Source of the DNA: Bryum argenteum
Taxonomy: Eukaryota > Streptophyta > Bryopsida > Bryales > Bryaceae
Assembly (NCBI GenBank): GCA_037043015.1
Contig: CM073321.1
Location: forward strand, 34,450,101-34,514,100
Reading direction: 5' to 3'
DNA length: 64,000 nucleotides
Shown: piece after piece, positions 5,317 through 63,657 of the stretch
Layout: the number at the start of each line of letters is the position of its first letter
Position numbering within the stretch: the first letter of the stretch is position 1
Position numbers and translations under genes: made by a program
The notes under the pieces: generated by a model
Database searches by the model: none
What the model was told of the DNA's origin: nothing
The model's input: only the letters and a program-made list of their open reading frames with translations

Positions 5317-5897
5317 GCAGTTTAGCTCAAGTCGAGCTAAATTGTAGTTGAAAAATGCCTCTACAGTTTAGCTCGACTCAAGCTAAACTGTAGTCGGCAC
5401 ATAACTCTACAGTTTAGCTCGACTCAAGCTAAAGTGTAACTGACACAAGCCTCTACAGTTTAGCTGGAGTCGAGCTAAACTGCTGCCCATATTAAGAACA
5501 AACTCCTATTTACGACGCAGTTCAGGGTTTAGGGTACAATGTTTGCATGACCGCATTCACAATGAAATCTACATAACACACTGTAGTTAAGTTAGAGCAA
5601 ACTAGAAACTTCTCTAAGAATAAAACAAAGCCTAAACGGATCCGGCTACAGTTTAGCTCGACTCGAGCTAAACTGTAGAGATGAAGTTAGGTGTGACATA
5701 CAGTTTAGCTCGAGTCGAGCTAAACTGCTGCCCAAGTTACGAGCAGTTCAAGGTTGAAGGTTTAGGCTATATTGAAATGACGTTAGGTCTAAAGTATAGA
5801 TAGCCTGGTAGCTTGAAGCGTGCAGTTTAGCCCGAGTCGATTTAGCCTGCTCATAAACCACTAGGCTGCAGTTTAGCTCGACTCGAGCTAAACCGCA
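5317..5897. repeat. P1 palindrome cluster in leader intron of gene A (8 copies)
   Basis: Eight copies of an odd-length palindrome: half-site CAGTTTAGCTCGA, one central C or G, then its reverse complement, often extended by flanking A/T or CTA/TAG. Approximate copies: 5317-5345, 5362-5392, 5408-5438, 5453-5481, 5646-5678, 5700-5728, 5821-5849 (degenerate), 5867-5897. Mismatches in one arm are often not compensated in the other. The cluster ends about 80 bp before the acceptor of the first recognised coding exon of gene A, so it lies in the leader intron. The spacers are unrelated, so these are dispersed insertions or sites rather than one tandem array. Confidence 0.9.
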
Positions 5898-7469
5898 AGT
5901 AGTACTAGGAAGGATAAACTAAGCTTCATGTATATCCAAACCATTACCATCAACTAACACACTCTCTCTTTACAGTCAGGAGAAGCCAAGAGTTCAGGAG
6001 GCGCTTGAGCACTTCTTCAAACTTAGGCCATCGGATATTGACGAGGACGATGGCGACGACACGAAGCAGTTGGGCTGCTAAGAATTCAAAGACCCATCCA
6101 AGGTTGTATTCTGGTCTGCGAGATGGATTCCATGGACAGCATTCCTCACCCTCGTCGTGACCTACGAAGGAGAGGTCACAGATCCCATGACAATCGACAT
6201 GGACTCTAAGCTCATGGACTTCGACCACGAATCGGAGAAAGAAGTCATTGCTACATGCAGAACCTTCAAGGAGAAAAAGAAGGAGTCTGCTTACAACTAC
6301 ACCATTTTTATAGACATCAAGCAAAGGCGCTTTGACTTGGGGCAGTTAGTGGAGAGTTTAGAGGCGTCCAGTTTCGATGACGTGAAAACAACACAGAAAC
6401 ATGACCTGCTGAATAAAACCTGGAAAACTAAGCAAGGGGGAGATCTCAGAGCAAAGCAGCTCGCAATCAAGCTGCGATCTGTAATTTCGCATCTGACACA
6501 CGCAGACGTTTTGGCGAAGACTATCACCCTCAAAGAAAAAGCTCCACTGGAGGAATCTGGGCTGACTGCGACGGGGAGCGGCGTACAGAGCAGGACCCCC
6601 TCACGCCCGCAACGTGCAACAAGACTTGCGGCTACAGCTACCACTACTTTTGACTCGCCTTCGAAGAAAAGAGAAGCTCCAATGAAGAAGTTGGCCGAGG
6701 CAAAGAAGAAGAAGAGCATGCTCATCTCCAAAGAGGATGCTGTTACGGCTTTGAACGAAGCGATTACTGCCATTCCAAAGAACATTAATACCGTGGAGGA
6801 AATCGACTTCGAGAACGTGAACCTCATCTACCAGAAGTTCTTCACAGACTGTCAGGATGCTTTTGTCTTTCCTAAACCTGACACGAAGATGGAGATCGAC
6901 ATGATAAGGATGATCGAGTCCCCCCTGCAATGGACAATCCGGGCATTCGAGAAGAAGGGCAAGACGGACTTGATGAGTTTCCTCATCAATATGCCTAACA
7001 GATTGCAGAAGCAAATGCTCTGCGTAATGCCGAAGTTAGACTTGAAGCCGAACGGCCTGGAGGATATGCAGGACTGCGACTTCTGGATAATCAATGGCCA
7101 ACACAGTGTTGCCGCCACGAAGCAGATGCTTGAGTCCAAAGTCTCGGAAACTATTCGTAAGGACTTTTGAGTGTGCTCAACTTTCGTAGTTTGGACAAAG
7201 GATGAAGCCAAGCTCCGCAAGATTTCGGCATTTACAACAGAGTGAACCATTTCACTCTGTTTAAGCCGACATGGGCATCGAACATCCTTGCCGCCCGCAC
7301 CGTATGGCAGACCTATGGGCGCCCCCCAAACAGACATGCAGCAGCTGGGGTGGCGGACAAACAAGTGCAAACAAAGCAAATTGCGTCACAATACGCAAAT
7401 TCTGACATAAGTTTTATCTCAAGTTCCATAGCAACTCTACCTTCTTTAATTGTGAACAACTTCCCGTGG

Positions 7470-7497
7470 CTGTTTAGCTCGACTCGAGCTAAAGTGA
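7470..7497. repeat. P1 palindrome in intron 1 of gene A
   Basis: A single copy 48 bp before the intron-1 acceptor (exon 2 starts at 7546). Genes B and C each carry two copies of their own palindrome in the same intron. Confidence 0.85.
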
Positions 7498-8913
7498 TCA
7501 CTCTCTTATACTCCGAAACCTTACACTACTTCTGTGGCATTGCAGAAATTTGTTGAATCTATTCGACAAAGGTTCGCCATCATCGATGTTGCCAAGGCCC
7601 AAGTAGAGGCAAAGAACAAGGTCTTGTCCCTCACGAATGAGCTAAAAATCATCACCTTCCCTGATAATCTCTGGGACCTATGGGCAGATTTAATTGGAAG
7701 TGTCGCCCAGGGGACCCTTATCGACCCCTACTCCTTTAGGATGTTGTGTGACAAAACAGGGTTCAAACCAGACAACGACCAAACCCTATCGAGGGAATTT
7801 TTCAAGAACCTCGGTAACCTTTCAGAGTCGGATCATAGGAAACTCTGTTCACATATGCTAAATAGGTCAGGTCCATCTCGGAAACAGGAATATCCGAAGG
7901 TTATCCTGAAACAAACAGCAACCCTACTTGAAGATTGCTACTCCGTCAAGGAGTACGTTGAACGGTTGAAGCGGAAGGCGACCGTCCAACTTCAGATCCA
8001 CAAGATTTGACCCGCACTCGGGATCTCCAAGAATAACGAGTTCGATGTGGTTGCGTGGAAGAAATTTAAAAAGCATTACCACGTCACTAAGGCTTCGAAG
8101 CGCGCACTCTTGGAATGGGGTATCCCTGATAAATATTACGCGCATCAGAGGCAAACCCAGCACAGGAATAGCAGTTGCGAGGATCTCTCTCCCTGCGCAA
8201 AGAGGTTCTTCGAGGTGTTTCTGGAAAAGCGCGAGAAGTTTATAGGCCCTGTTGGTAGTGTTATATTCCGTTCCTTCCATTGCAAAACACCAGAGAGGCT
8301 TAGAGGTTCTTCGAGGTGTTTCATGGCTGGAGGTTGCACCTGAGATGAACGTTGGAATCATCGACTTCAGACTGGTTCTGGGTAGTGGTAGTATTAGCAC
8401 CTCCGATTCCTCGCCTGACCACCCATTCTTAAAAATAATCATGGCGATCTTATTGTCCCAGAACAAGCCAGCTCTTACAGATGTACCCTCCTGGTTATTT
8501 ATTTGCGGGGATGACAATGATTACGCGCAAGTTGAGGCATTTGCGACAAATCTTGCCTACTTCCCAGGGTCGAACTATAAGCTGATTCCATCATTGTACT
8601 ACCCATCCCCGCACGAACGGATCGCTGGATTGAATGCGAAAGCGAAGCAAGCCTTGGAGCCCGTGCGTCTTCTCTTCATGATTAGGGAAAACGTGAAACT
8701 CGCAGAATGGCCAGAAATTGAGTATCGCGCCCCAAAGCACGCGCTTTACGAGAAGCCGCGGAAGTACAACGAGTCTCGGTATCACATGTACTCGATTGAG
8801 TTGAGGATGGATTTTTATTTGCAGGTCATCCGGCTTTTTTGCTAGGAGCAGGAGAATATTTTTCTCGTCTACGCCGGCGGAAAAGCAGTCTGCGCAAGTG
8901 TGGTAAGCTTCCA

Positions 8914-9060
8914 TACAGTTTAGCTCGAGTCGAGCTAAACTGTCACACTTAGTTTGTAATCGTGGGATTCTCTACAGTTTAGCTCGACTTGAGCTAAACT
9001 CTCATACCTATATAGACATTATGTGCCCCTTACAGTTTAGCTTGACTCAAGCTAAACTGT
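8914..9060. repeat. Three P1 palindromes in intron 2 of gene A
   Basis: Copies at 8914-8943, 8972-9002 and 9031-9060, spaced close to 59 bp. They lie inside the 240-bp intron between donor 8903 and acceptor 9142. Flanks end in TGTCA or TCTCA, suggesting local duplication. Confidence 0.9.
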
Positions 9061-10088
9061 CATTTTTATTTTGCAAACCTGTCTGCTCAAACTTCAGAGC
9101 AAGTTCCTTATTCCTTTTTCTAAGTTGCTGTATTTATTGTAGATGCTGTCCCTCGATGCCTACTCCATATTCGACACTGAAGATAAAGGGGACATCGACC
9201 ACACGTACAACAAAGGGCTTACTCTTGATCCCACTGAGTTCTCCGTGAATGGATATTTTGTCAACAAAGAGGAGTTTCCAGAGGTCGGGGGCATGTTCTT
9301 GAAGGGCAAGCGCAAAGCTGTTGCGTCCTTGGATGCCCTAGACGATGAGGCGGACGTCTCCAACCGGGAGGATTCTGGGTCAAGCGGAAGGCTACATCAC
9401 GGTGAAGGCAACACTTACAGCCTTGGTTCTGGAGGAGATGACTCCGCTCCATTCAAAGAGGAAGACATGAAGTTGGACACGACCCCTCGGACACCGCAAG
9501 AGTCGCGTACTGCTCCTGGGCGAGGAGGCGGCAGGGTGGGTAAAAAGGGGAAACGTAATCCCTTGTCGAAGGACTCACCCTCAAGGTTGAGGAGAGTGCC
9601 AAATTCGCAGCACTCATCGGAAGTTCGAGGAGATGGCACACCGTAGGAAATTGGAAGAGCTCCTTGCGCAGCAGCAAATTGCGCAGAAAGAACGCGATAA
9701 GATGGACCAAGAACGCCATGCCTAGATGATGGAGATGATGCGGATTTTATCTTCCGCCAAGCCATTAACTTCGGTTCAAACAATGGCAATCACTACTGCT
9801 CAGAGTGGTGATGCAAGTGCTACACATGCTGGTCCTACTACTTCGCAACCACTCACGTCCTCGTCGCCTCCAACTACTGAGCCTTCCGCGCCTACACCTT
9901 CCTCTCCTACGCCTAAATTACGATCTGTGGGTGACGCAGAAGAAGAATCTACAGGTCCTCCTTCAACTTAGATTTCGGATCGAGTGTATAGTATTTAAGC
10001 TGTTAATGCCGGAAAACACATATACATGTGAAATTTTGTATCAAACTCGGAATTTTTTTTGTAATTAATACAGGCCTTTACTATTTTG

Positions 10089-10117
10089 CAATTTAGCTTG
10101 ACTCGAGCTAAACTGTT
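10089..10117. repeat. P1 palindrome before FCP1-like gene A2
   Basis: One P1 copy with arm mismatches (caatttagcttga / tcgagctaaactg). It lies about 95 bp upstream of the acceptor at 10208-10209 of the first recognised FCP1-like exon. Confidence 0.8.
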
Positions 10118-10209
10118 GTCCTTTTTCTATCTGCTTCTTGTTGGCTCCCATATTCTATTTCCTCCATCCTATTGTTTCCTGATTCCACGAACTTGTATTG
10201 CGCTGCCAG

Positions 10210-11061
10210 ATGTTAATTTGGATGACAAAGCAATCGATGTTCCAGTCATGGATGATGTCACGCTTGAATGCTATCGCCGTGAGCGGGTTCCATCGGTGGA
10301 GGACAAACTTAAAATCCATGATGTCTCACATACAGAGAATGTTGTTGCTGTCCGTGATGAGATAGATTGCACTGAGCAGTCACTCGGGTCAATGGGTGTC
10401 CAAGTTGACTTAAAAGAGAGCAATTATGATAATCAGGTATATTCAATTCCACACACTCTGCTCTCACCCATGGCCTTGTTGCGATGTATTACATGATTCT
10501 GACCTTAAATTCATCGCACCAGTGACGAAAAATCCCCAGTAATTTTGTCGTGGTGCGCCGTTTTCATTTCAGTTCAACGACGCATCCGTCAATGATCTAA
10601 GTTCTAGAGAAGGCATAGGTCGGGTTCCAAGGAAATCCTTCGGTACTTGGTTAAATGTTCTACTCAACCTCAATGGTATCCCGTGCAATTGCACGCCATT
10701 TTGGGAAGCTAAAGGATACAGAAACCGTGACTTCCGTGTTCACTCGGCCACGTTGCCAACCGAGGTGGGGAAGAGGCTTGTATGGGTGAGGCCCAACTGT
10801 AAGCACTTCCTCTCTCGGGTGGCATTGTTTGCTACCATCACAGTTTGGAGTTCAATGATGAAAACAACCACAGAAGCCATTTGTAATTTTCTCTTCGGTC
10901 CTATAAACCCTATAAGGCCATTACAAATTGTTGGTCAAGAAGACTGTGACATGATTCCCTTGAAATCTAGTGGGAGCCGACCATTGTTCATGAAGGAACC
11001 GGGAACACAGAAGTCTATCTTCCTTAAGACCTTGTCAGCTCATCTCTTCAAGAATGATTAA
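10210..11061 (+). pseudogene. FCP1/NIF-like HAD phosphatase-family protein, paralog A2, truncated
   Basis: Two exons are visible: 10210-10436 (donor GTATAT) and 10573-11061 (acceptor ttcag). The second has the FCP1/NIF-type HAD order: strand WLNVLLNLNGIPC (motif I), TVWSSMMKTTTEAI (motif II), VGQEDCD, and KSIFLKTL (motif III lysine region). FCP1-type phosphatases use D-x-D-x-T/V in motif I, and the first Asp is the phospho-acceptor. Here the motif reads N-L-N, so the nucleophile is gone. The frame stops after LFKND, just before the expected motif IV Asp-Asp that paralog B2 keeps (LLIDDSPEK). It is therefore a C-terminally truncated and probably inactive relic. It sits directly 3' of ParB-like gene A, the order also seen in module B. 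Confidence 0.65.
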
Positions 11062-11198
11062 CTATTTGTAGATCTACTGCAGTACACTCCAATACGTTAG
11101 ACAATTCTTAGACATTTGACTCATATGCTACCTATTGCTCGTATGTATCTTTTAGCTCCTTTACTTATAAGAAATGTTGTTGTTTACCTTTGTTCAAG

Positions 11199-23236: not shown

Positions 23237-23680
23237 GGGCCGGGTACTTCGGTTTTTTTTTTCATCACTCCCCTCAAAGCTCTTGTGCTCACTGTAATCT
23301 CTTCTGTGAGATCCCTCCTAGTCCTCGTTGCTTCACAAGGCTTCCTCGTGTTGAATGAGGCAAAGACAAGTTCAGTGTGTTGAAGGTCTTTGTGGATTTC
23401 TCCTAGGAGTGACAGACTTGCGTCCACGCAAGGCTGACCTCAGAAGGCCGGGTACTTTGTTTTTTTTTTATCACTCCCCCTCGATTCTCTTGTGTTCACT
23501 ATGATCTCTTCCGTGAGATCCCTGGTAGTCATGGTTGCTTCATAAGGCCTTTTCGAAGGCCTCCTTGTGTTTAATGAGGCGAAGACATTTCAGTATGTTG
23601 AAGGTTTTTGTGGATTTCTTTGGGGAGTAACAGACTTGCGTCGATGCAAGGCTGACCTCAGTGGGCCTGGTACTTTGTTT
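23237..23680. repeat. Tandem repeat of about 210 bp, two full units plus a stub
   Basis: Unit 1 is about 23237-23444 and unit 2 about 23445-23660; a third unit begins at 23661 (gggcctggtactttg) and breaks off near 23680. Each unit starts with a (g/t)gcc(g/t)ggtactt phrase and a T-run and ends with caaggctgacctcag. The Ty3/gypsy integrase frame stops matching its family exactly where the third unit ends. The repeat therefore forms the broken 3' end of that element. Confidence 0.8.
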
Positions 23681-24642
23681 CCGTGGCAACCAGGATGTAT
23701 TTGTATCCTTGTTTGGTGGCTGGTATTATTAGTCCCACAAAATCTAGACCCCACCGCTGAAATGGTCCCAATGGTTCTATGGATTTGAGGGGTACCTTTC
23801 TTTGATGTTGGAAATTAGTCATAGCAACTTGGCAAGCGTGGCAATTTTTCATATATGCAACTACATCCTTGTGTACCGTGGGCCACCAATATTTAGCAGC
23901 AAGTATTTTCTTTATCGTTGTTTTTGGTCCTTGATGTCCGCCTGCTGGGCCTACATGGAGGTTATCAATGATGTGTTGTTGATCCTCCGTGGGGATGTAG
24001 AGTCCGGTCTCGAAAGTGGCCCTCTTTTGATACAGCTTACCGTGGATCACCGTGTATGGCAATGTTGTCCTCACGAAGTTGATTTTGTGCGTGCCTGCTA
24101 TCCCTGTTGGTACCAGGCCTTGAAGTAAGTAGGCTATGATATCCTTTCTCCAATCATTTTGAGTTTCCGTAGTACCAAGGCTGGTGTCTAGTGCGGCAGC
24201 TTGGATATATGGTTCATTAAATGAGTCATCTATGCCTTCCTCGGTGGTGTTGGTATCCCTGGAGAGGTAGTCTGCCACTACGTGCTGCTTTCCTGGTACA
24301 AAGACCACCTCGAAGTCATACTGCATGAGAATCATGATCCCGAGCTACACGTCCGGTAATCAATGAGTCATTTACTAAGTACGATAAACTATGGTGATCA
24401 ACCATGAAGCGAAACATATTTCCTAGCAAGTAATGTCGAAATTTTTTGACTGCGTAGACCATGGCTAGTGCTTCTCTTCCCGTGGTTGGATAATTGCGTT
24501 CAGCCTGGTTCAACAATCTGTTAGCGTAGGCCACCGGCTGATCGTGTTTGTCGTAGATTTTTTGAGCTAACATGACCCCCACGGCGATCTCACTGGCATC
24601 TGTGTGGACGTGGAATGGCTTGGCCCAATTTGGAGCGAGCAA
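23680..24642 (-). pseudogene. RNase H and N-terminal integrase remnant
   Basis: RNase H: FHVHTDASEIAVGVML (first catalytic Asp), then TGREALAMVYAVKKFRHYL (Glu) and MVDHHSL. A frame change near 24320 leads to FVPGKQHVVADYLSRD. Integrase: the HHCC zinc-binding module is readable as LHVGPAGGHQG then CHACQ, with YWWPTVHKDV between. The start of the catalytic core is WGLDFVGLIIPATKQGYKYI, containing the first D of D-D-E. The remaining core is lost at the tandem repeat junction. Confidence 0.8.
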
Positions 24643-39266: not shown

Positions 39267-39448
39267 CTACAAAAAAGAAGAAGATTGAAAAGATAACTTA
39301 GTGCTTGTTTAATAGCATAGAGATGATCAAACATGAAAACCGACGCAAAGCGTTCCGCCCACGGTAATCCGCGGCCCGTGGATAACAAACTATAGATATA
39401 TATTATCCACATAACGGGGATAAAATCGAACCTTAAATGTCGATGTAA

Positions 39449-40273
39449 ATTATCCCGGCCCGGGATAACTTTTTAACCGCCGCGAGAATGACGATTTATC
39501 CCTGGCCGGGATAATATTTTTATAGGCGGAATTTGGTTATCCGGGCCGGGGATAACAGAATCTTTACCGAGAATATTATCCCGGCCGGGGATAATCAATC
39601 TGCGGGCGGTTAAAAGTTATCCCCGGCCCGGGGATAACCATACGAATCGTCTCAGACGATTATCCCCGGGCCGGGGATAATAATTTTTACGGGCAGTTGC
39701 ATGGTTATCCCCGGCCCGGGATAACATTTTGAACCGCCCGTATCACGATTATCCCCGGGGATAATATTCTGTGGGCAGTTGCAAGGTTATCCCGGGGCCG
39801 GGGATAACCAAATTCCCACCCATAAAAATATTATCCCGGGCCCGGGGATAATATTCTGTGCGCGGTTGCAAGGTTATCCCCGGGCCGGGGATAACTAATC
39901 TACCGCCCATAAAAATATTATCCCCGGCCCGGGGATAATATTCTGAGGCACTTGCATGGTTATCCCCGGCCCGGGGATAACATTAATTTCATGGGCAGTA
40001 GAAGTATTATCCCCGGGCCGGGGATAACAGTTTTTGTAGGCGGTTACATAGTTATCCCCGACTGGGGATAACCATGCAACTGCCCGTAAAAATATTATCC
40101 CCGGCCCGGGGATAATATTTCTACTGCCCATGAAATTAATGTTATCCCCGGGTCGTGGATAATGGTTTTTTTGGGTGGATGCATGGTTATCCCCGGGGCT
40201 TGGATAATCATCGGAGCATAGATTCCAGGAATAATCCCCACAGACAGTAGAAGTTATCCCCAGCCTGGGGATA
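39449..40273. repeat. P2 palindrome array in the 5' intron of the DUF7869 gene (about 19 copies)
   Basis: Odd-length palindrome: half-site (A/G)TTATCCCCGG, central C/G, reverse complement. Copies begin near 39449, 39496, 39537, 39575, 39627, 39658, 39705, 39748, 39786, 39829, 39872, 39917, 39958, 40006, 40050, 40097, 40140, 40186 and 40252. Copies alternate between att...aat and gtt...aac ends. Every second copy repeats at about 81-91 bp with conserved spacers (atattctgtg.gcagttgca and accgcccataaaaa), so the real unit is a two-palindrome dimer. The spacer ttaatttcatgggcagtaga (39980s) recurs inverted at about 40115-40137. The array lies just upstream of the acceptor at 39267, so it is intronic or in the leader. 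Confidence 0.9.
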
Positions 40274-40329
40274 ACTTGCATTCTATTAATAGTAAGTGCT
40301 AAAACACTATCACTCATGCCTTGCACTCA

Positions 40330-44000: not shown

Positions 44001-46290
44001 TATATTATATTATATTATATTATAGTATAGTATATTATATTATATTATATTATAGTATATTATATTATATTATATTATATTATATTATATTATATTATAT
44101 TATATTATAGTATATTATATTATATTATATTATATTATAGTATATTATAGTATATTATATTATAGTATATTATAGTATATTATATTATATTATATTATAG
44201 TATATTATATTATATTATATTATAGTATATTATATTATATTATATTATATTATATTATATTATATTATATTATATTATATTATATTATATTATATTATAT
44301 TATATTATATTATATTATATTATATTATATTATATTATATTATATTATAGTATATTATATTATATTATATTATAGTATATTATATTATATTATATTATAG
44401 TATATTATAGTATATTATATTATATTATATTATATTATATTATATTATATTATATTATATTATATTATATTATATTATATTATATTATATTATATTATAT
44501 TATATTATATTATATTATATTATATTATATTATATTATATTTATTATATTATATTATATTATATTATATTATATTATATTATATTATATTATATTATATT
44601 ATATTATATTATATTATATTATATTATATTATATTATAGTATATTATATTATATTATATTATATTATATTATATTATAGTATATTATATTATATTATATT
44701 ATAGTATATTATAGTATATNNNNNNNNNNNNNNNNNNNNNNNNNNNNNNNNNNNNNNNNNNNNNNNNNNNNNNNNNNNNNNNNNNNNNNNNNNNNNNNNN
44801 NNNNNNNNNNNNNNNNNNNAGTATATTATATTATATTATATTATAGTATATTATAGTATATTATATTATAGTATATTATAGTATATTATATTATATTATA
44901 TTATAGTATATTATATTATATTATATTATATTATATTATATTATATTATATTATATTATATTATATTATATTATATTATATTATATTATATTATATTATA
45001 TTATATTATATTATATTATATTATATTATATTATATTATATTATATTATATTATATTATATTATATTATATTATATTATATTATATTATATTATATTATA
45101 TTATATTATATTATATTATAGTATATTATATTATATTATAGTATATTATATTATATTATATTATATTATATTATATTATATTATATTATATTATATTATA
45201 TTATATTATATTATAGTATATTATATTATATTATATTATATTATATTATATTATATTATATTATAGTATATTATATTATATTATATTATAGTATATTATA
45301 TTATATTATATTATAGTATATTATAGTATATTATATTATATTATATTATATTATATTATATTATATTATATTATATTATATTATATTATATTATATTATA
45401 TTATATTATATTATATTATATTATATTATATTATATTATAGTATAGTATATTATATTATATTATATTATAGTATATTATATTATATTATATTATATTATA
45501 TTATATTATATTATATTATATTATATTATATTATATTATATTATATTATATTATATTATATTATATTATATTATATTATATTATATTATATTATAGTATA
45601 TTATATTATATTATATTATATTATATTATATTATATTATATTATATTATATTATATTATATTATATTATATTATATTATATTATATTATATTATATTATA
45701 TTATATTATATTATATTATATTATATTATATTATATTATATTATATTATATTATAGTATATTATATTATATTATATTATAGTATAGTATATTATATTATA
45801 TTATATTATATTATATTATATTATAGTATATTATATTATATTATATTATAGTATATTATATTATATTATATTATATTATAGTATATTATATTATATTATA
45901 TTATAGTATATTATATTATATTATATTATAGTATAGTATATTATATTATATTATATTATAGTATATTATATTATATTATATTATAGTATATTATATTATA
46001 TTATATTATATTATATTATATTATATTATATTATATTATATTATATTATAGTATATTATATTATATTATATTATAGTATATTATATTATATTATATTATA
46101 TTATAGTATATTATATTATATTATATTATAGTATATTATATTATAGTATATTATATTATATTATATTATATTATAGTATATTATATTATATTATATTATA
46201 TTATATTATATTATAGTATATTATATTATATTATATTATATTATAGTATATTATATTATATTATATTATATTATATTATATTATACTTTA
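41040..46290. repeat. ATATT pentanucleotide array with AGTAT variants
   Basis: More than 5 kb of near-perfect 5-bp repeats (attat/ttata). Scattered AGTAT variant units form a barcode. One variant pattern (two AGTAT ten-mers, a gap, two more, then a longer gap) recurs near 41163, 41737, 42812, 43428, 44138 and 44844, so the array has a higher-order structure and grew by block duplication. There are two phase slips (near 42796 and 43140) and one insertion near 44540. The true length is unknown because of the assembly gap inside it. Confidence 0.95.
44720..44819. other. Assembly gap, 100 N
   Basis: Exactly 100 N, a conventional placeholder. The sequence on both sides is the same ATATT array, so the real gap size is not known. 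Confidence 0.98.
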
Positions 46291-48334: not shown

Positions 48335-48353
48335 GCTATTCTAAAATTTTATA

Positions 48354-49215: not shown

Positions 49216-50839
49216 GTGAGATAAGACCTGCATTTTTGTGGGTTTTTGCTGAAATTTTGTGAGCTTAAAATCCAGCTTTTATGTTTTGCTCTGCATTTGA
49301 TGCGTTTAGTTAGCTTTTTTAAATTTCAACTTCTGAATTGCACTTGGCTTCAGAGTCGTAGCTCCTTGCAGCATCTTTATCTGTTCTGCATTCAGGTTTA
49401 GTAGGGTTCAGCTGAACTCATCACACTGATGCTTGGAATTACGTTAATGAATTCCGTTTTGGAATTGCGTTTTGGAATTGTGTTTGGAATTGTGTTTGGA
49501 ATTGTGTTTTGGAACCCTGTTTTGAATTTCTACTTGGAATTGCAGTCTATAACTATACTCAGCATCAATTGGGATTTACTTCGCTATCGCACATCCAGCC
49601 TTCATTAAGCAATTTTTTGAGGTGAGCTCCAAATTCTAATTGATTTGCTTGGACTGCTTAACTCATTTCCATTCATTGAAATTGCTGTTGAATTCTAAAA
49701 TCTACGTCGTATGTAGATATTAGAGTCGTTTCACAAGATTCTCCAATGCCGATACGTGTTATCACATCTCGGCCTCCCAATGTTATCCCCGGGCCGCGGA
49801 TAAATCCTGCGAAAGCCGGGTTATTGTCTTATGTACAAAGGAATTATCCCCGGCCCGGGGATAATACTGTCACCTGCCATGTCCTTTTTACCAAAAAAAG
49901 AACCAAATTAGCCCCGGGCCGGGGATAATTCCTACCACACTCCCTAATTTAGTTGAAAAAAGAGAACAATTATCCCCGGCCTGAGGATAATATTGTCACC
50001 TTCCAAGTCCTATTTAACAAAAAAAGAACAGATTATCCCCGGGCCGGGGATAGTTCCTACGAAACTCTCTAATTTAGTAATAAATCGAGAAGAATTATCC
50101 CCGGCCCGGGGATAATATTGTCGCGTGCCATGTACTTATCAGTTATCACAGAACCCATTATCCCCGGGCCGGGGATAATTGTTCTCGTAATGTTTCTTAA
50201 TTACAGATATTATTAGGAATTATCCCCGGGCCGGGGATAATATTGTGACCTTCCATGTCCTATTCAATAGAAAAAGAACCAATTATCCCCGGGCCGGGGA
50301 TAATTCCTACAATAATCACTATTTTAGTAAAAAAGCCAGAACAATTATCCACGGCCCGGGGATAATATTGTCATATGCCATGTCATATCATCATATAATG
50401 ACTGCAGATTATCCCCGGCCCGGGGATAACTTCTCATGTACGCACTAAAGCTAGCAATTCACCCATAGATTATCCCCGGCCCGGGAATAATTGTGTGACT
50501 TGCCGTATTATAACATAATAAAGAAAAGAATTATCCCCGGGCTGGGGATAAAACTGCAGACTCTTCTTAGGTATATTGAGTAGACAAGTGCCAGGATACA
50601 ATGATATAAAAAACAATGAAAAACATACACCACGATAATGTAACTGTTATCCCCGGCCCGGGGATAATTTTGCCTTTGCCTATAAGTTCTCAAAAAAAAC
50701 AGCAGATTATCCCTGCATCGGGGATAATTCCACAGCTCAGTCGTAGAAATTAGTTAGACTAGAAAATCATTATCCACGCCTCGAGGATAACTAAATTATT
50801 TTGGCATTAGTACTGATGAGTTGCTATTGACAATTGCAG
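49216..50839 (+). other. Leader intron of gene B
   Basis: Bounded by donor gtgaga and acceptor caattgcag. The first part (49.2-49.75 kb) contains repeated ggaattg(c/t)gttt words near 49450-49540. The second part is the P2 array. Confidence 0.55.
49781..50789. repeat. P2 palindrome array in leader intron of gene B (about 16 copies)
   Basis: Copies begin near 49781, 49842, 49908, 49970, 50031, 50094, 50157, 50218, 50281, 50343, 50407, 50469, 50529, 50646, 50704 and 50767, a spacing of about 62 bp with one longer step. Two spacer types alternate (attgtcacctgccatgtcc- and tcctac-actc-aattta-type), so the underlying unit is a dimer of about 125 bp. Spacers differ from those of the 39.4-40.3 kb array although the palindrome is the same. 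The last copy ends about 50 bp before the splice acceptor. Confidence 0.92.
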
Positions 50840-52272
50840 ACCAAACGATGGCTCTCAGCGACACAAATCCCCTCGAGTACACCTTAAACAAGGTCCAGCA
50901 CCCATTTGGGTTCAACCCATTCATGAGCGATAACGATGATGAAAGCCTTGATCTCTGGCTCTTCAAGGAGGTGGTCGCCAGCTGGTCATTGAAGATCGTC
51001 AAGAACCATGTTCTGGTCATGACCAAGTTGGTCTTGACGGACCCTTTCCTTCCCTTGCACCAGAATCTAAGAGTGACAGCATTCGAAGCACACAGGCAGA
51101 AGTACATGCTGCTCAGGTGTGTCCTTCTACAGGTGGACGAGGACAGGGAACCTTACCACTTCGGAATTGTGGTAGAGGTGGGTGCAAACTGTGGAGCCCA
51201 GTTCGACCCGTTCGGCTTTCTTCTGGAACTGCGCAAGACTCGGCATGGCTTTCTGAAGTTCTGGGAGGACAACATGAAGAGCTGGGAGAACATCAACCAG
51301 GAAGATACAGTTCGTAAGCTTTTGACCATGCTGTCAAGACTGTCACAGACGCATGAGGGATCAAGCAGTAGAGCTGCGAAGAAAAAGAAGGCACCTGCGT
51401 CCTCTGCACTTGTCGTGCATTCAGAGGCTTCAGCCCCGGTCTCAAGTGGTCCTTTGCCGGCTCCCCCGCGTGTGCCTGCAAAGAGGCTGATGAATGATGC
51501 TATTGTAGCGGGCGGAGCCGCCCCCAAGAAGAAGAGACAGCGTACCGCTCCCGCTACAACAATAAGTCAAGGATCGGCATTGACTTCTACCGTCGAAGTG
51601 CCCGCCCGTCAGAAGAAGGATTCTTCCAAACCTTCGGCTGAAGTCGCAGACTATGTGAGGTTTGCTTCTGAGCAGACATGCTTCAACGCCAGTTTCAAGG
51701 ACTCTTTCCTGTTCAAGAAAGAACAGAAGCTGGTGCCCATTTCGCAGCTTGTGAGAGGAAAGCACACGTGGGTAGTGCGAAGTCTTGAACGGGACATCGT
51801 GGATAATACCAAGAAATTCCTCTCAATGATGGGCGATGGCGACCGGAGGCAAACAATTATCATCACCCCCATCGACGCCAATGGAGATCTGCTTCCTAGG
51901 CGACCTACAACATGGGAGGAAATCAAGGATGGAAGATTTGCTATCATTGATGGCCAGCACTCCGTAGAAGCCTCGAGGGAGCTTCAGAACGAGTCATTAA
52001 CAGAGGAAAGAAAGAAAGAACTTCTATCGTGGTATGCATACATTCTATACGAGACCGACCCGAAGCTCCTCACTTTGATTTCGGCATTCTACAACACCAC
52101 CAATCCTCTGAAGCACGCCCAGCCGACGTGGGGCAACCAGATAAGACCTGGAAGGTCTATTTGGATCGAGTGTGGCCGGCCAGCCGCAAGCGTGAACGAG
52201 AACGCGACACGCAATAACGACTCAGTGTACAGTCCCACCAATTTCAAGGTAAGACTCTACATAGTCCCCAAA

Positions 52273-52372
52273 GATTATCCCCGGACCGGGGATAATTCCC
52301 AGTCTGTTGCAGTCTCATCTCTATCGCCATTAGCAACAATACTGGAACTGTTATCCCCGCCCCGGGGATAAC
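52273..52372. repeat. Two P2 palindromes in intron 1 of gene B
   Basis: Copies at about 52273-52296 and 52350-52372 inside the 208-bp intron between donor 52249 and acceptor 52456. Genes A (P1) and C (P3) carry their own palindrome in this intron. Confidence 0.92.
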
Positions 52373-53868
52373 TTGGCTCTAGCGCTTAGACATGCTCTTT
52401 GTTAGATACTTGAACTGCTCTCATCGCATCTAACACTTCATTTTAATGTCTCTCAGAAATTCACGGATCTGCTCAACATCCGGTTCAGAAACATCGACCC
52501 CACCAAGGCAGGGAAGTCGATTCTGACTACATCGGACCTCAAGCACGAGATCCAGATCATTACGTTTCCGGACACCATGTACGATAAGTTCGTGGAGTTC
52601 CTAGAACTCCATTCCCTTGGAAATCTTATCAATCCCGACACAGGTGATGCTTATCGCATGAACCCAGCTTACTTCTTGAAAAAACAGCATCATGTGAGCC
52701 AGGAGTTCTTCAGGAAGTTCGGAAATCTTTCCGATGACGACATCGACAGGGTCATCACCTTCCTAGTCCACGTTGAAACCGCGAAAGGAGCGATGAAGTA
52801 TCCCAGATTGTCCTTTCACAAGACAAAATACTTCCATCGCTTGAGCCACGTATGTGGTGATTGGATAATTCGACAGAAGTGCAAGGCAATCGTATACCAA
52901 GAGTTCCAGGCGGTCAGACCATCTCTTCCTTTCTTCCTTCCCAACGGTGGAGGCGTTTGCCCAGAGAAATGGAAGAAATGGAAGTCGAGGAAGGGCTTCT
53001 CAACGGCGTCGTGGAACATGCTGCTCAGCCACCCTGAGGCAAAATTCTACTCGACCCGACTGCAGAATCAAAGGAAGTGCAAGACGGCCGGGGAGATGAA
53101 GTCCATGTTTCCCAACGCAGAAGACTTTTTCAAGAACTTCTTGCGGGAAAAGACCAAGCATCGGGAGTCCACCATGGGATTCTATCTTTGAACCTTTGAC
53201 TCGAAGGCCATGAATATCAGTGGCCAATGGTCAACTTTGGCGCCTGCAGGAACAGTTTCTCTTGGGCTGTTTGACTTGCGAGACACTGCCTTCTCACTGT
53301 GCAAGACTTCCGATTCTGCAAAGGAGTTCTTCAAGGCCTTGGTAGCAAAGTTCGCGGTGATCTCAAATCCGGCTTACACAGACCCTACTGTATGGGTATG
53401 GATCGTGAACGGCGCCATCACGAAGAAGCTGGAAACGCTAAAGGCGATGATTATGGTGAGCCACTCGAACTACACAATGAGCACGTCGAAGTATCTGAAG
53501 TCTACATCTGAGAGGATCTTCAACGCCACAGCCCTAGAGAAAGCTACGAACGACGTGTTCATCGTCTTCTTGTTCAAGAAGACAACAGAAGGGCAAGCCT
53601 TCGTCGGCACCAACCCCGTGGAATTCAAAGCCGCTAATGTGCCTTATTACATAGATAGTGGGCACTACAACGAATCCAAGTGGTCTGCTAAGTACTCGGA
53701 GCTGCGGATGGAGTTCTACATTGGACTCATCCGCCAGTACTGCAAGAAGGGTGAATCAACCCTCGGAATCTTTTCCGGCTCAAAATTCATGGTCGCCTCC
53801 TTGGTAAGCTCGTCATCTCTTCTCATGGATTGAAATCCTGATTATCTTTCTGATGTCAATTTGTATCG

Positions 53869-53892
53869 GTTATCCTCGGGCCGGGGATAACT
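53869..53892. repeat. P2 palindrome in intron 2 of gene B
   Basis: One copy with a single arm mismatch (ttatcctcggg), inside the 134-bp intron 53804-53937. Confidence 0.9.
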
Positions 53893-55335
53893 TTTGCATG
53901 TCCAATGTGACTGATCCTTTCATCTCATCTCATGCAGATCCTGAGACATGCCTTTTATGGCTTAGTTGACAGGCACTACTACGCGGGTTACCTGCTCTCT
54001 GCGGGTAAAAGGGAGAGGGTTGACTTTAGGGACTTTCTCCACGATGACTGTCCCTACGACACGAAGAAGAACTCATCTTCTGATGATATGGGCGACCTCA
54101 GCCTCGTAACAAGGGCTTCATTTGAGGGAAGCCAACCATCATCTTCTGCAGCTGAGCCGCAGTCCGACCTGGGAGCTGAAAGTACGCGATCGCCTCAAAC
54201 TCAGGCCCCAGATACTACTTCAAACGACTCGGAGGAGAAGAAAAGTGATGAGCCTTCCACCGACTCCGACGGTGACGATTCCGACGACTCGGACTATCGT
54301 TCGGGTTATCAGGCGCGGGGATAGGAGGTCATGCTATCTCCGCAAGCAACGCCAACAACACCATCACCCCAGGCAACGCCGGATGCACCATCAGCGGAGC
54401 CATCTCCAACAGCACTATCAGCTGGGGCATCGCCAACAGCACCATCACCAGAGGCAATGGAGACATCTCCTCCTAGGTCCACTCCGATGGGTGATGAGCA
54501 CCAGGCGCAGGGGCCAGATGCCGAGACCCGTCGCCCTGGTAAGGAGTCCATGCCAGAGATCCCGTCGAGGCTCGTCGCGACAACGACAATGCCTGTGCAA
54601 TCATCTGCGGATGTTGTCGTGGGATCATTTGGCAACCCCGAGTCCCCGAGGCCATTGAAACGTCGGCTCGATCTCGCAGCTGAGACCACGACTCCAAGTC
54701 AGCCATTGGATGGGGCATCTTGCGCCATGCCCGCTTCCACTGTTGCACCTGCGGTGGACACAACCCCGCAGAGTAAAGTCGTTAACAGACGTGGGAGGCC
54801 GATCTTTGCATACGTGGCGCCCACTCACGTGTACATCGATCTGAGTGACGAGGAAGGCACCGATTCATCAGATGAATTCTACGTGATCGATGTCCCAGCT
54901 CCCGAAGGCGAAACCATCGAGCTCCCATCGTCGACACCTTCGAGCTCCCGTCGTCGAAACCGGCCACTTGATGAGGCCGAGCTGGCTGCTCTTGCTGCTG
55001 ACACGGAGGTAAAGAAAGAGAAGGTTGTGTGCAACCCCTCTACTGACCCAATGGCGAATGCAGCAGGAGTGGCGCCTCCTCCAGGTGCCCCGGGTGTGAA
55101 GGTTGAAGAGCACTACGGGGAGTATAGGAGGAGGTTAGCGGAGGAGGCGAGACTGGCAGAAGCGAAGGCCAAAAAGGAAGCTGAGGACGCAAGAAAGCTC
55201 GCAGAGGCCAACGTCGTCTATGAATGGGTGAGAAGTGGCACGCCAATGCCGGACTACGTTGCTGCAATAATTGCAGGCGAGCATCCGGATCTTCCAACTA
55301 CCTCGGACGCCCCTGGTTTCGAGCCTGGTGCGCAT

Positions 55336-55850
55336 TATCCCCGGGCCAGGGATAACTCTGCCACCACCACAACTGCTGTACCTAGCAGCGAGGGGGGCCC
55401 TTACCCCTGCCCTCGGGCACTGCTTCTCTAGATTATCCCCGGCCCGGGGATAATACTGCCACCACCACAGCTGCTGTACATTGTAGCGAGGTGGATTCTT
55501 TGACGCTGCCCTCGGGCACTGCCTCTCCAGATTATCCCCGGGCCGGGGATAATCTCGCAGAGATCGGCTCCGACTCCCAGTGTCAGCCATCTGCCCCTCA
55601 GAAAGATCCTGAGCTTGTCGCTACTCGTTCTCTCGCTGATGCCGACCAGCGCGATGTCGTTGCTGCCTCTCAGGCATCTGCCGATCAGCTCGATAAGTCA
55701 GGAAATTATCCCCGGCCCGGGGATAATCCAGACTCTTCTGTTGAAGTGTCGCCTCCCGACGGCCAACCTGCTCTAGCTCCTGACTCAGGTCTAGAGCTCT
55801 CGCAGTACGACCAGTTGGTTAATTATGCCCGGCCCGGGGATAATGATGAG
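55336..55850. repeat. Five P2 palindromes inside coding exon 3 of gene B
   Basis: Copies at about 55336, 55432, 55530, 55704 and 55822. The first three lie in a roughly 97-bp tandem duplication (dattatcccc...gccaccaccac-gctgctgta...ctcgggcactgc). In the reading frame each palindrome translates as (N/D/H)-Y-P-R-(P/A)-(G/R)-D-N or a close variant (NYARPGDN). Surrounding sequence is acidic and Pro/Ala-rich with coding character, so these copies are probably exonic. A single-base indel in the G-run near 55396 shifts the first unit. Confidence 0.8.
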
Positions 55851-56351
55851 CCTACAGGCGAAGTGGAGGACACCGTGGGTGCTCCAGGTGCTATCGAGGC
55901 GAGCGCAGAGGTCATACCTGATCCAACTGCAGCTCCGGCGTCCGAGGAGCAAGAGATCGCAACCACTCCGCCAAGGACCCAGGTCGATGCCGATGACCAG
56001 CAGTTGGTGAACTATTCTTCGAGCCCGACGGTCGCTGCTCAACCGCAAGAGCCACATGATAACGTAAGTTCTTTGACCCTCCCTCCCACGACTGCAATAA
56101 GTCGTCATCGTCACAACCGTCATTATTTTGTTTGTCTTGGTCTGGACCTAAACCGATTCGCTTGCCTAAACTTCGCTTATTCGTCTATTTTCTCCTGCAG
56201 GAGATCGACGACCCTTACTCGTTATGATATTTCTGGAGTTGTCAACGTTTGCTGTGGCGCGTCATGTATTCTAGATTTTTGGTAGTATTAGTTCACAGCG
56301 TAGTGTTTCGGTCAAAGTTGACAAACACATCCCTTGTACATGGTTGATGTA

Positions 56352-56602: not shown

Positions 56603-57451
56603 GGTAGAATTGATTTCCCAATTTGAGTGTGTCCCGCGCCCGAGGTCTGCACTCGGGCAGACGGCGCCGCCTCAATGGTTGAATGTCGTCCTCGACATCA
56701 ACGGGATCCTTTGTCAGTGTGTGCATCTGCCTTCGCTCGGGAGGAATTCTCCCATGTGCTCTCCTGGGGACCGGCTCTACGTGCCGGACATCCCAGCGAA
56801 GGTGCCTCCAAAGGCGGTCTTCTGCCTCCAAAGGCGGTCTTCTGCCGCCCGGGAGTGAGGGAATTCTTGGAGACCATGTCCGCCCATGTTGCGAGGGTTG
56901 TGATATGGAGTTCGATGAAGAAGTCCACTGTTGAGGCCGTCATCGACTACCTCTTCAGTGGACTTCCTAAGCCTTTTGAGATCCTCGGACAAGAGTCTTG
57001 TGGATTGGTTGAGGTTAACAGAGGTGTCTATTTGTCGTACCCAACCAATGCTCAAAAGAGGATATTTTTGAAAACGTTGTCCTCTGCGGTGTTCCCGCTT
57101 AGTAACGGTGCTGTTGTGTTTGGGTTGGATAACACTCTCCTCATTGACGACAGTCCTGAGAAGAGTATTTGCAACCACACTGGAAATGCCATTTTCCTCC
57201 AGCCTTGGACAAAAGCTAGCCGAGAGGACAATACTCTGTCCGCCGTTCTTACTCCATGGCTACTCGCTCTTCTCGCCAATTGCAGGCCTGGGAATCTTCG
57301 GTCCTATGTAGACAATCATAGGATTGGTATTCCGCCTATCAATAAGTATAGCAATTTAGGTCGGTTTATTTTAGATGGTATGGCGCAGTCGCATAGGAAC
57401 TTAGGGCGTACTTACGAAACTCCTTCATTTCCTAAGTCATTGTCTAGATGA
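56603..57451 (+). pseudogene. FCP1/NIF-like HAD phosphatase-family protein, paralog B2
   Basis: The exon probably starts after gatgccag (AG 56601-56602) with VELISQFECVPRP. An upstream exon (about 56429-56570, acceptor tctttctcag) is likely, but its frame is unresolved. Motif I is WLNVVLDINGILC (nucleophile Asp kept, second Asp replaced by Asn). Motif II is VVIWSSMKKSTVEAVIDYLF, the motif III region KRIFLKTL, and motif IV LLIDDSPEK with both Asp. This is the most complete FCP1-like copy in the window. A 20-bp tandem duplication, gcctccaaaggcggtcttct at 56804-56823 and 56824-56843, shifts the frame between motifs I and II. FCP1/NIF proteins are usually nuclear CTD phosphatases. The stop is at 57449-57451, and AATAAA at 57537-57542 follows. 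Confidence 0.7.
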
Positions 57452-57542: not shown

Positions 57543-57689
57543 GAAGCCGATTATTTTATCATCTTTTATGTACCACATCGCAATGTCATCAATTTCTATT
57601 ACGTTTGTGGATGCTTGTTCACTTAGGATTGATGCTGATGATTGTTTCTGCTGTATGAGTATTTCTTTGTTGTTAGTTATGACGTCATT

Positions 57690-58685: not shown

Positions 58686-58689
58686 TGTT

Positions 58690-59730: not shown

Positions 59731-60066
59731 GTTTAACTCGAATCGAGTTGAAACAGAGCTCGCGTGTGAAAGCACTACTGTACCACTCTATTGTGCGCAT
59801 TCAACTCGAGTCGATTTGAATACCAAATATGAACTCTAAGCGCCTTCAAACAATACATTCAACTCGAGTCGATTTAAATATAAGAACGCATGTAAGAGCA
59901 TGGTTTCGAAAGCGGACTTAATAATCTATTCAACTCAGGTCGAGTTGGATTGAATCTAAGTTTGTGTGAAATGATCCTTGACACTTTGAAGTGTGCACTG
60001 TTAAATACAACGAACTTAGAAAGCAACGAGTCATGACAAACTATTTAACTTGAACCGAGTTGAAAT
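59731..60066. repeat. Five P3 palindromes in intron 2 of gene C
   Basis: Copies at 59731-59754, 59799-59822, 59857-59879, 59928-59950 and 60043-60066. Half-site (A)TTCAACTCGA, central G/A, reverse complement; several have mismatches in one arm. They are spaced 55-115 bp apart, between exons 60085 and 59685. Confidence 0.9.
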
Positions 60067-61483
60067 ATATAGGACGTCCTTATCCAGGCCGCACAAAGAG
60101 AGCTTCCCGCCTCCAAAAACACTAAGGATCGCATCCCCTTCCTTGCAAAAAGAGATTAAGCGACTTTAGGTAGAACTCACACCTCAATTCCGTATTATAG
60201 ATACGGTACTCGAGTTCGTTGTATCCCCCGCAGATGTTGAACTGTGGAGTGTCGGGGGCCGGGAAGAACTTCGGGAGGTTTAAAATCTTCAATTTCTACG
60301 ATTTACGAAACAAGAAGAGGATCCGGACATGATCCTTGGCCTTCTTGGTTGACAAGGTTTGATCCTTGAGTCGCTCATATGGAGCCGGAATATATTCCGC
60401 ATACTCTATCTTGTAGTTCTTTCCGAACTCGCAATTATCGAGGTGTTTCTTAATCTTCGCCTGAGCATCCCTACTTCCGCAGATCCAAACCCAAACGGGG
60501 ATTTCAGTAACCATCGGGTCCGTGATAGACTTTAGGACTTGGAAGACGTTGTAAAAGTACGAGCTTGATGACGAGCTCGATGAAGCTGATACCTCCTGTG
60601 CTCCGGGGAGATTACGGAAGTCCATTATTCCGACCTTGATTCAATTCGAAGATAATTCGTTCCAAGAGTCACGATGCCATTCCCCCAGCACATCGTCCTC
60701 CAAGTTGTAGGTCCTGAAGTTTGTCTCGCCCCTTGGAACCTGAAACTTCCCCTTGTTGGCGAGAAAGACTCTGAAGAACTCTGCTACATACAGCGAGAGT
60801 TGCTCTACGGGCTTGTTCTTGTTGCTGGAGAATTTTGCCAGCGCAAAGAAGGACTCCCCGAGATTCATAATCAGAACGTTCAGTGTAGCTGGCGCTATCT
60901 TGAAATCGGTCTTGAATTTCTTCCAGCTCTCCTTCCTGAAGTCCCCACTTGTGCTGAACAGCATTAAGTCAGGGCGCATGTTGTGAATCACGCGCTTCAC
61001 GATGGTCTTCCTCTTGCAGCGCTCCAGCGAGTCGTAAGAGCTGTAGCAATCTACAATCACACCCTTCATCTGCTTCAATATGACTTTGGGGGTATGTGTA
61101 TGACCGTTTTGGATTCGGTTTGTTCAGCATATGGTCGGCTAATCGCTTGAGCTCGGGGTAGCTTGTGTTGCCGATCCATTTGAAGAACTCCCTAGAGATG
61201 TTTCCATGCTCAAGCTTCCACTTCCCCAACTCCTTCATCTTCCTTCCTGTGTGAGGGTCGATGAGCTGCCCTTGGGATGCGGCTGAGATAAGCTCAAGCC
61301 AGACCTCGTAGACATAATTAGGAGCACAGATGATCTTAAACTCATTCTAGATGTTGAGCTTTTCTCTGGCCGCTTTTCTTGCGGTCACTGCTTTCTGGGC
61401 GCCCTTCACGTCAATGAGAGCAAATCTAAGCTTGACAGCTTCCATGAACTTCTGTATCAACCGAGTACAATATTGAGTTAGAT

Positions 61484-61584
61484 ATTTAACTCGAGTCGAG
61501 TTGAAATGGGTTACAACTGGAATGGAATCGAAATAGTTCATCGTTAGTATTGTAGGACACTATTCAACTCAAATCGAGTTGAAT
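61484..61584. repeat. Two P3 palindromes in intron 1 of gene C
   Basis: Copies at 61484-61507 and 61562-61584, inside the intron 61598-61452. Confidence 0.92.
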
Positions 61585-63086
61585 GGAGTTGCACATACGT
61601 TGAATGCGTCCTTTCTTTGGTTTCTTGCCCTTCGAGGCCTTTCGTGTGACGGTCCTCCCGACCTGTAGCCTCCTTTGGATTCTCCCGTCTACCGAGGCTT
61701 TCCCACAGCTTCCTTGCCTTGATGATGTTTGTCACCCATGTTGGATTTGTATTCATGAAGTGGTTGACCATGTTGTAGAACGCGGAGATTCTCCGAATGA
61801 TGGACTTATCTTCATTCCATACTACGAAGGAGTCCCAGGCCTTAAAAGCGTCCCTGATCTTCACATCTACATCAAGCTTGTTTTGCAACTGTTTGGAGGC
61901 CTCGACACAGTGTTGTCCATTGACCATGTAGAACTCCCCGTCCCGTATCTACTCCCAAGATTGGGGTTTTACGAGCTTATTCTTCGAGAAGACGCAGAGG
62001 GTGTTCTTCTTTTCCTTATCGCTCATCTCAATAAGGAAATGCATTGTGTGCCTTACTTTTTCCTGTTCGAGGTTCCGGATGTTCAGTTCCGTGGGGGGGG
62101 GGGTAAAGAGACGCTCGATTGGAATCTCGTGAATGACATCTGAGCCAAAGATGTAAGAGTCTTGGCAAAGAGTCCAGTAGTTCTTGAAGGCATTCGTGGA
62201 CTCTTTGTAATCGACAGCTTTCTCTACACTGTCGATTGGGACGTCTATCAAGGCCGACACTAAGCTCGCCTGATCAATCTCCGCGGGATTGGCCAGGGTC
62301 GACTTCTTCGTCGTGACTGATTTGATCTTCTTTGGTGTCGGCCCCCGCTCTGTTTGGGGCGGATTTCCCTTGCGCCTCTTTGATCCCGTCGTCTCAGGAG
62401 TCTGATATAGGATCGACTCGTGGCTGCCGCTGTGCATGCTTACTTCGTGCGTCAGACAAAGGGGCTGCATTTGCATCTTCTTGCGTTGCAGCTTTGCCTT
62501 AAAGTTCACCATGGCAGTGACCAGTGATCGGAGACAAGGGGCGAGAATACTTGGGGGCTGCTTGTTACCAAGATCGATTGTGAATCAAAACTCGCGAATG
62601 TGTTGCTCGACATTCTTCGCCAAGGGTTCGTACTGAGAATGTCTTATACTCTTGACATGAGCCCAAATGTCGAAATCGATCTTCATCGTGTCGATCATGT
62701 TAGTGAACCTGTAGTCCTGGTCCAGAGCCGTGTCTTGAGTAGGGTCGTCGACGATGCACGTCACGCAGATTCAGTGCGTGTTGTGGACGACGACATCGAT
62801 GATGTTCTCTTCCAAATTGACGGGAAGGTTGCACTCTGCTCCCCTGTACTTGGTGACGACAGCCAACTTGTCTGTGTGCGGTGTGAGGAGCATACTCCAC
62901 CATTCGACATCCGTAGGCTCTGTGTGCACCCACATGTCGCCAAATATTTCTGGGTATGCGACTTTGCTGGCGCTGTCAGGAACATAGGGCTTGAAGAATG
63001 CTGAGAGCCTCTCCTTCGGATTGGTTTCTCCTGATGAGACACATGGGCAAAATGAGTATTAATCCATACATATTGCAAGGATTAGT

Positions 63087-63657
63087 ATTCAACTCGAGTC
63101 GAGTTGAAATAGCATTCTAACCGTCTTTGTTAGATTACAAATATCGTTAGCAACTGTCCAGGGAAGTTTAATTCAACTCGATTCGAGTTGAAATAGCATT
63201 CTAACCGTCTCTGTTGGATTACAAATATCGATAGCAAGGAAGTTGGATTCAACTCAGTTGGAGTTGAATGTATCCTTTGAGGAGTTTTGTAATCTCCACA
63301 TACAGTGCTTAAATACTTTCAACTCGAGTCGAGTTGAATTAATCTTGAAGATAAATCTTCTTCATTTCAATTGGAATTGAGTTGATTGTATAGACCCATG
63401 TTCCCTGTCTAATTTAGGCAGAGGATTGTGTTGTACTTCAGTTGAGTTTGTCATGTCATTTTTCAGCCCTATGGATACCCTGTTTGCATTTAGTAATTTC
63501 TATGCTTAACTAATTCAACTCGAGTCGAGTTGAATATTATGGTGCTTCTTCAACTGCTTGAATTTATGTACAGAACCTTTCTATTCCAACTCAAGTCGAG
63601 TTGGATTGTTTTTTTACTTTCACATGCGCTACCGTTATTCAACTGGAATTGAGTTGG
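63087..63657. repeat. P3 palindrome cluster in leader intron of gene C (8 copies)
   Basis: Copies at 63087-63110, 63171-63193, 63247-63269, 63317-63340, 63364-63384, 63512-63535, 63583-63606 and 63636-63657, about 50-130 bp apart. The first two spacers are a roughly 80-bp tandem duplication (agcattctaaccgtct-tgtt). The cluster begins about 50 bp upstream (in gene direction) of the exon-1 acceptor at 63031, the same arrangement as P1 in A and P2 in B. Confidence 0.92.

Follow-up and report, generated by a model that had tools for sequence, protein, structure and literature searches.

The closest known counterpart of the genes described here is the ParB and methyltransferase gene of Sola1-1_Ec32, a 21.5-kb DNA transposon of Ectocarpus that encodes, on the strand opposite its transposase, a protein of 1,104 amino acids combining a ParB-like domain with an N4C/N6A DNA methyltransferase domain (PMC12477816). 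In the accessible parts of that article, the authors suggest that proteins of this kind might bind their own transposon and modify it epigenetically, and ParB and methyltransferase cases from green and red algae are cited; the string 'palindrom' does not occur in its main text as available. For the VANDAL transposons of Arabidopsis and their anti-silencing VANC proteins, tandem repeats of a motif are described both in introns of the element genes and upstream of VANA, which encodes the transposase (PMC5735166, in the excerpts available). In bacteria, the VirB-virS system, in which a ParB-type protein relieves silencing (PMC10770331, in part), provides a precedent for a ParB-type anti-silencer, and proteins that combine a ParB domain with an adenine methylase in one fusion are described, for example Bacillus cereus Bce_0392 (PMC5512222, likewise in part). 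This article concerns a 64,000-nucleotide stretch of the genome of the moss Bryum argenteum (GenBank assembly GCA_037043015.1, contig CM073321.1, here C1, positions 34450101-34514100 of the forward strand), hereafter the window, in which three related genes, A, B, and C, each accompanied by palindromic sites of its own (P1, P2, and P3, respectively), belong to giant DNA transposons as accessory genes that have decayed.

We consider it rather likely that these transposons encode a ParB-like and pseudo-methyltransferase protein that serves as a regulator or anti-silencer by recognizing its own class of palindromes, and that works like VANC on parS-like sites; the arrangement suggests that each element recognizes and controls only itself. 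The elements are probably Sola1-like. By description, they resemble Sola1-1_Ec32 in that a ParB-like and methyltransferase-like protein is encoded divergently from a transposase (assumed to be DUF7869) in an element of about 20 kb, a likeness that covers the P2 element and, leaving aside the exact ends, the P3 copies. They differ in lineage and in that an N4C/N6A methyltransferase is predicted in the accessible description of Sola1-1_Ec32, whereas the catalytic motif is absent from the moss copies. With VANC, as far as the available text describes it, they share an element-encoded protein, short lineage-specific motifs, and a layout of sites in introns and upstream of the transposase; the motif of VANC21, however, is 9 bp long, has one orientation, and has changed between related species, whereas the moss sites are 21-bp palindromes, change more slowly, and lie beside a DUF7869 gene. 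ParB-parS and VirB offer a ParB-type protein, parS-like palindromic sites, and action at a distance, but are bacterial CTP-dependent clamps for which the excerpts available mention no methyltransferase-like domain, and the ParB-methylase fusions are prokaryotic, with palindrome arrays unmentioned in the part of the source at hand. A eukaryotic self-recognizing ParB-like protein with cognate palindromes had been thought undescribed in the first-pass annotation of this DNA, which had foreseen neither the giant transposons nor the methyltransferase-like C-terminal half. ParB and methyltransferase proteins of transposons are in fact in print (PMC12477816), whereas cognate palindromes go unmentioned in the accessible text of the literature found. 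The kind of protein is already known, and the novelty seems to lie in the private palindrome code and in how it is tied to the protein lineage, in elements with an apparently inactive methyltransferase.

Sites of all three classes are 21 bp long and are composed of two 10-bp arms around a single central base that is C or G, and read TTTAGCTCGA-S-TCGAGCTAAA for P1 of gene A, TTATCCCCGG-S-CCGGGGATAA for P2 of gene B, and TTCAACTCGA-S-TCGAGTTGAA for P3 of gene C. Allowing up to five mismatches, gene A has eight P1 sites in its leader (5321-5872), one in intron 1 (7473), and three in intron 2 (8919-9036); gene B has 16 P2 sites in its leader (49783-50790), two in intron 1 (52275 and 52351), and one in intron 2 (53870); and gene C has eight P3 sites in its leader (63088-63638), two in intron 1 (61485-61563), and five in intron 2 (59732-60044), figures identical to the copy numbers given by the first-pass annotation. 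Its placing of the palindromes in introns is too narrow, because a second P2 array of about 18 sites (39365-40274; up to six mismatches; mostly 40-47 bp apart) lies upstream of the minus-strand DUF7869 gene, five P2 sites (55335, 55433, 55532, 55706, and 55823, together 55335-55843) fall inside downstream coding frames, where they are translated as YPRPGDN and variants, and an extra P1 site is found further downstream, at 10092. The spacings of the coding-frame sites are multiples of 3 in k956, another copy in the same genome, and in three of the four cases in the window copy; two further P2 sites lie at 57689 and 57771. Periodicity within arrays is regular (about 44-46, 53, and 62 bp), the sites in the leader of gene B being mostly about 62 bp apart. 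At the centre, C and G occur about equally in the window (8/6 in P1 and 19/16 in P2), as a two-fold symmetric site would permit. A scan of 34.9 kb of the window, with the microsatellite-rich parts left out, found perfect 10-bp arms at 29 centres and at 0 in each of five first-order Markov sequences; with up to two mismatches there were 237 centres versus 9-23 in the Markov sequences.

The association of gene class and palindrome extends well beyond the window. Throughout the genome (258.8 Mb in 25 contigs), P1, P2, and P3 occur in 10,664, 1,782, and 2,179 copies per strand, respectively (up to two mismatches; 0 for the reversed, uncomplemented control), and the codon pattern for (I/V)(D/N)GQH followed by a small residue and V is found at 122 places on one strand and 127 on the other, compared with 0 for the control, about three places being expected by chance from a hand estimate. 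Association was counted for P2, P3, and a fourth palindrome, P4 (see below), with P1 left out, over all 54 GQH places listed on C1 up to 12.22 Mb, the gene classes being codon signatures around the GQH motif and absences being relative to the sites listed, exact matches first, for this part of C1. Among the places listed, each of the 11 GQHC genes has an exact P3 within 5 kb and none of the 43 others does; at this distance, P2 accompanies 6 of 10 DGQHS genes, against 0 of 32 others (to 9.55 Mb), and P4 accompanies 2 of the 3 genes that carry the GGG..CAT signature, again against 0 of 32 others (to 7.59 Mb). The pairing of each GQHS-type paralog with a distinct palindrome, proposed from the window, is therefore found, among the places listed, in every case for P3 and in most for P2, with no off-class case. 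Although dispersed genome-wide, the palindromes are not scattered without a link to these genes, because all ten blocks fetched by palindrome position, in 20 pieces, carried genes of the element.

The position of the motif is also a guide to sites in other genes. In 11 further genes, a stretch of 601 bases was read where the leader was predicted from the motif position alone, and nine of these stretches contained a palindrome array or what decay has left of one. P1 was found in four of them (L036, L038, L041, and L044), decayed or variant P2 in three (L039, L045, and L046, with L045 recognized by eye only), and the new palindrome P4, TATCGTCGNNNCGACGATA, which has 821 copies per strand (at most one mismatch), in two (L037 and L042); the two DGQHT genes (L040 and L043) carry a 30-bp direct repeat, about TGCCTGCTAAACGCACATCTTTTAGGTAGC, instead of a palindrome. 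In one site of L046, TTATCCTCGG-T-CCGAGGATAA, both arms have been altered together. By eye, and allowing variants, P1-P4 have in common a core, CGRSYCG, with two CpGs, and differ in their outer arms.

Relatives of the protein from other sources were obtained with profiles of its exons (73 with exon 2 and 7 with exon 1, with 8000 candidates scored for the latter), one of them being A0A2K1ISM0 of Physcomitrium patens, which is 43% identical over 65% of the query; when the spliced B protein itself served as query, no relative appeared among 8000 candidates scored. None was found in prokaryote genomes, nor in viral contigs with one query, and sequence searches of the PDB gave nothing significant, the deep exon-2 profile ranking PRMT7 first at E 0.37. 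In some of these relatives, frames that continue beyond exon 2 spell the palindromes in protein form. Of 44 relatives with a tail of at least 8 residues, a rough rule by which some tails include exon residues, a palindrome peptide was present exactly in 8, with at most one mismatch in 12, and with at most two in 24, compared with means of 0, 0.1, and 3.2 and maxima of 0, 1, and 6 for shuffled tails. One relative, P0076, which is 45% identical to exon 1 of gene B, reads IYPRPGDNF after the exon, and this is the translation of P2. On a protein tree with 17 rows, whose labels come from palindromes seen in the DNA or from exact peptides, the three palindrome classes can be placed with 2 changes, which is the fewest possible (mean of 7.1 on shuffling; 0/200 as low); P3 and P2 each occupy one side of a branch, and P1 does not.

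Gene B, on the plus strand, consists of exon 1 (50848-52248), encoding the N-terminal part and the ParB-like DGQHS domain, intron 1 (52249-52456), exon 2 (52457-53803), encoding a helical part and an amino-methyltransferase-like part and interrupted by an in-frame TGA (53189-53191), intron 2 (53804-53937), and exon 3 (53938-54321). Gene A with its P1 sites lies at 5321-10112 on the plus strand and gene C with its P3 sites at 59732-63658 on the minus strand. The intron positions recognized early on as common to the three genes fit the protein alignments, and GT-AG borders were read for introns 1 and 2 of gene B. All three genes contain in-frame stops or frameshifts and are therefore decayed copies.

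The encoded protein seems to join a ParB-like domain to a beta-class amino-methyltransferase-like fold without the catalytic motif. Profile-profile comparison with hhalign against eight phage and plasmid ParB-like proteins, a target picked on the strength of earlier ParB leads, gave a match around (I/V)DGQH(R) with a probability of 92.8 and P 4e-7, with controls of 0.075 (best of 60 column-shuffled decoys) and 0.46 (reversed); among PHROG families, the ParB-like family 1033 came top at E 0.048 (2 of 15 members), the next families following at 0.054 and 0.056. In the whole genome, PF02195 matched nothing at E 0.001, one candidate having been scored, and it was absent from Pfam scans of members of alignments A1 and A5. 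The ParB-like assignment made at the outset is accordingly supported by the hhalign match and lacks a significant counterpart in Pfam; the missing PF02195 match lowers the ParB label, not the resemblance. Structure models were built from shallow alignments, and structural comparison listed no match for the ParB-domain model, which is too poor to judge the fold. The model of exon 2, from copy k10036, has a Rossmann-like fold with the beta-class order of elements, and all 50 structural matches listed for it are amino-methyltransferases. At the position equated with the catalytic motif, D-F/L-R is found in 41 of the 44 ungapped rows of alignment A3; (D/N/S)PP(Y/F/W) occurs nowhere in the 73 relatives, many of which are partial (three have the looser EPPL, EPPH, and SPPL), and DPPY is absent from the copies in this genome. 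Judged by its sequence, the methyltransferase part appears inactive. N6_N4_Mtase was matched by 1 of 45 members at E 0.082, and in the same Pfam scan Tugs by 2 of 45 (E 0.00036); Tugs and the matches to Pao peptidase (E 0.064), DUF3785 (E 0.0032), and DUF5041 (E 0.0052) were set aside because they fell below cut-off, stood alone, or lacked support.

Element B, of the P2 family, spans 35886-59404 (23,519 bp) and has related inverted ends, AAGGGGATATTAAGTATTTTGAGAC and inverted AAGGGGATATTCGTTATTTTGAGAC, that are also present in copies k956 and k5386. Sola1 transposons make 4-bp target site duplications (TSDs), and element B is flanked by one (TTAG, computed), with ATAT and ACAT read by eye at k956 and k5386, respectively. 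A 4-bp TSD is stated for Sola2 (PMC3627910), and Sola1 has been recorded in Physcomitrella (PMC9033089). When joined, the flanks of element B match three P3 elements across the junction at 81-83%, and element B has therefore jumped into the element carrying gene C. This element C, of the P3 family and split by element B, covers 32195-64000, with its left end near 32195 and the other beyond the window; two P3 copies terminate in ACACCATATTCATTATTTTGAGAG, which is related to the P2 ends, and a similar end lies near 32195. The ten blocks of the same genome picked by palindrome position were compared with the window proteins by tblastn. A NIF-like phosphatase gene, the GQH gene, and an array, followed by a divergent second array and DUF7869, are found in this order in the window and k956 (both P2), and the divergent order is identical in four P3 copies (k8158, k8478, k8570, and k10036). 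Copy k3823 fits this order except for a weak NIF match (25%) and a misplaced Ser-rich match, and k5386 has DUF7869, the Ser-rich gene, and NIF with no GQH match; the Ser-rich gene is found in P2 copies. Among the blocks with P1, DUF7869 sits at a different place in k205, and none was found within the fetched stretch of k2998 and k3210.

We favor a self-recognizing ParB-like regulator because the divergent gene order of the window recurs in k956 and in four P3 copies, together with defined ends and TSDs; because the association among the places listed is class-specific; because nine of 11 predicted leaders hold arrays or traces, including the new P4; because the palindrome classes follow the protein tree and the tails of relatives spell the palindrome peptides; and because of the ParB profile match and the amino-methyltransferase matches listed for exon 2. 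An element would encode a divergent pair, a DUF7869 protein as candidate transposase and the ParB-like and pseudo-methyltransferase protein, the latter binding the odd-length palindrome as a dimer. The bound palindromes would fill the upstream regions of both genes, the protein's own introns, and part of the downstream coding region, and binding may mark the regulatory DNA of the element, keeping it open against host silencing and/or allowing autoregulation, with an effect limited to elements of the same palindrome class. Long branches, gappy rows, and near-copies weaken the tree.

It is unlikely, in our estimation, that the palindromes are instead binding sites of the DUF7869 transposase, with the ParB-like protein doing something else. 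The subterminal repeats of CACTA elements would be the model for such sites, the DUF7869 gene adjoins an array in seven of the ten blocks (k956, k3823, k5386, k8158, k8478, k8570, and k10036), and the DUF7869 of P2 copies, too, differs from that of P3 copies, with an identity of about 32-68% depending on the piece. The arrays, however, are internal, near two promoter regions and in introns and coding DNA rather than at the termini, P2 and P3 elements have related termini but different palindromes, and the P1 blocks with DUF7869 elsewhere or missing from the fetched stretch do not fit. Arrays at both divergent upstream regions could also reflect a host transcription or chromatin factor recruited to promoters, with private classes due merely to common descent, which alone would yield the clustering on the tree; as differing outer arms on one CGRSYCG core (by eye) would require several host factors, and as sites also lie within introns and coding sequence, we give this little credence.

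Two further explanations seem very improbable to us. If the gene models hold, the intron and coding sites would be transcribed, and the repeats might act as hairpins in leader and intron RNA, through structure, small RNAs, or splicing, but the arms meet at one base and leave no loop without the opening of pairs. The regular spacing of the arrays points to tandem amplification, as in a selfish internal satellite of functionless palindromic repeats expanding in non-coding transposon DNA, an origin that is hard to reconcile with a private class by lineage, with copies in coding frames, and with divergent copies that keep the same locations in both upstream regions and introns 1 and 2.

The self-recognizing regulator may further amount to a parS-like code, in which a dimer of the ParB-like protein with its dead methyltransferase would read the CGRSYCG core plus a lineage-specific arm, with at least four mutually orthogonal pairs in one genome, each of which would open or mark none but its own elements; we put this forward tentatively, as a possibility of some weight. 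If true, this would connect ParB-methyltransferase proteins of eukaryotic transposons with the DNA they target, a connection new to the literature searched; a second route to VANC-like self-recognition would be added, and several natural protein-palindrome pairs, possibly orthogonal, would be testable in a moss with good genetics.

Among the other genes of the window, the DUF7869 gene of element B (36475-39099, minus strand; three open reading frames (ORFs) with two in-frame stops) matches PF25273 at E 6.3e-43, with HTH_23 below cut-off in its N-terminal part (E 0.022); Pfam gave DUF7869 and no family of MULE-type transposases, the type of VANDAL elements. Downstream of gene B, a Ser/Pro-rich coding region of two overlapping ORFs (54325-56285, plus strand) holds the five coding-frame P2 sites and is followed by the NIF/FCP1-like phosphatase gene (56627-57451, plus strand; PF03031, E 2.2e-12). 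Element C has a NIF-like gene at 33861-34631 on the minus strand, and a NIF-like fragment lies downstream of gene A (10543-11061, plus strand; tblastn E 3e-13 to the B copy), so that such a gene or fragment adjoins all three GQH genes. An internal second copy of the terminal motif, ATATTCATTATTTTGAGACGG, is located at 36069, and such a copy also lies near the same end in k5386 and, slightly altered, in k956. Between the divergent upstream regions of element B, at 41-47 kb, lie stretches of a short TATTA-type microsatellite (ORFs 42075-42847 and 45317-45781) with a 100-base N gap at 44720-44819, and parts of this region align to other copies. On the minus strand at 23658-24344, an ORF resembles a retroelement RNase H/integrase by eye.

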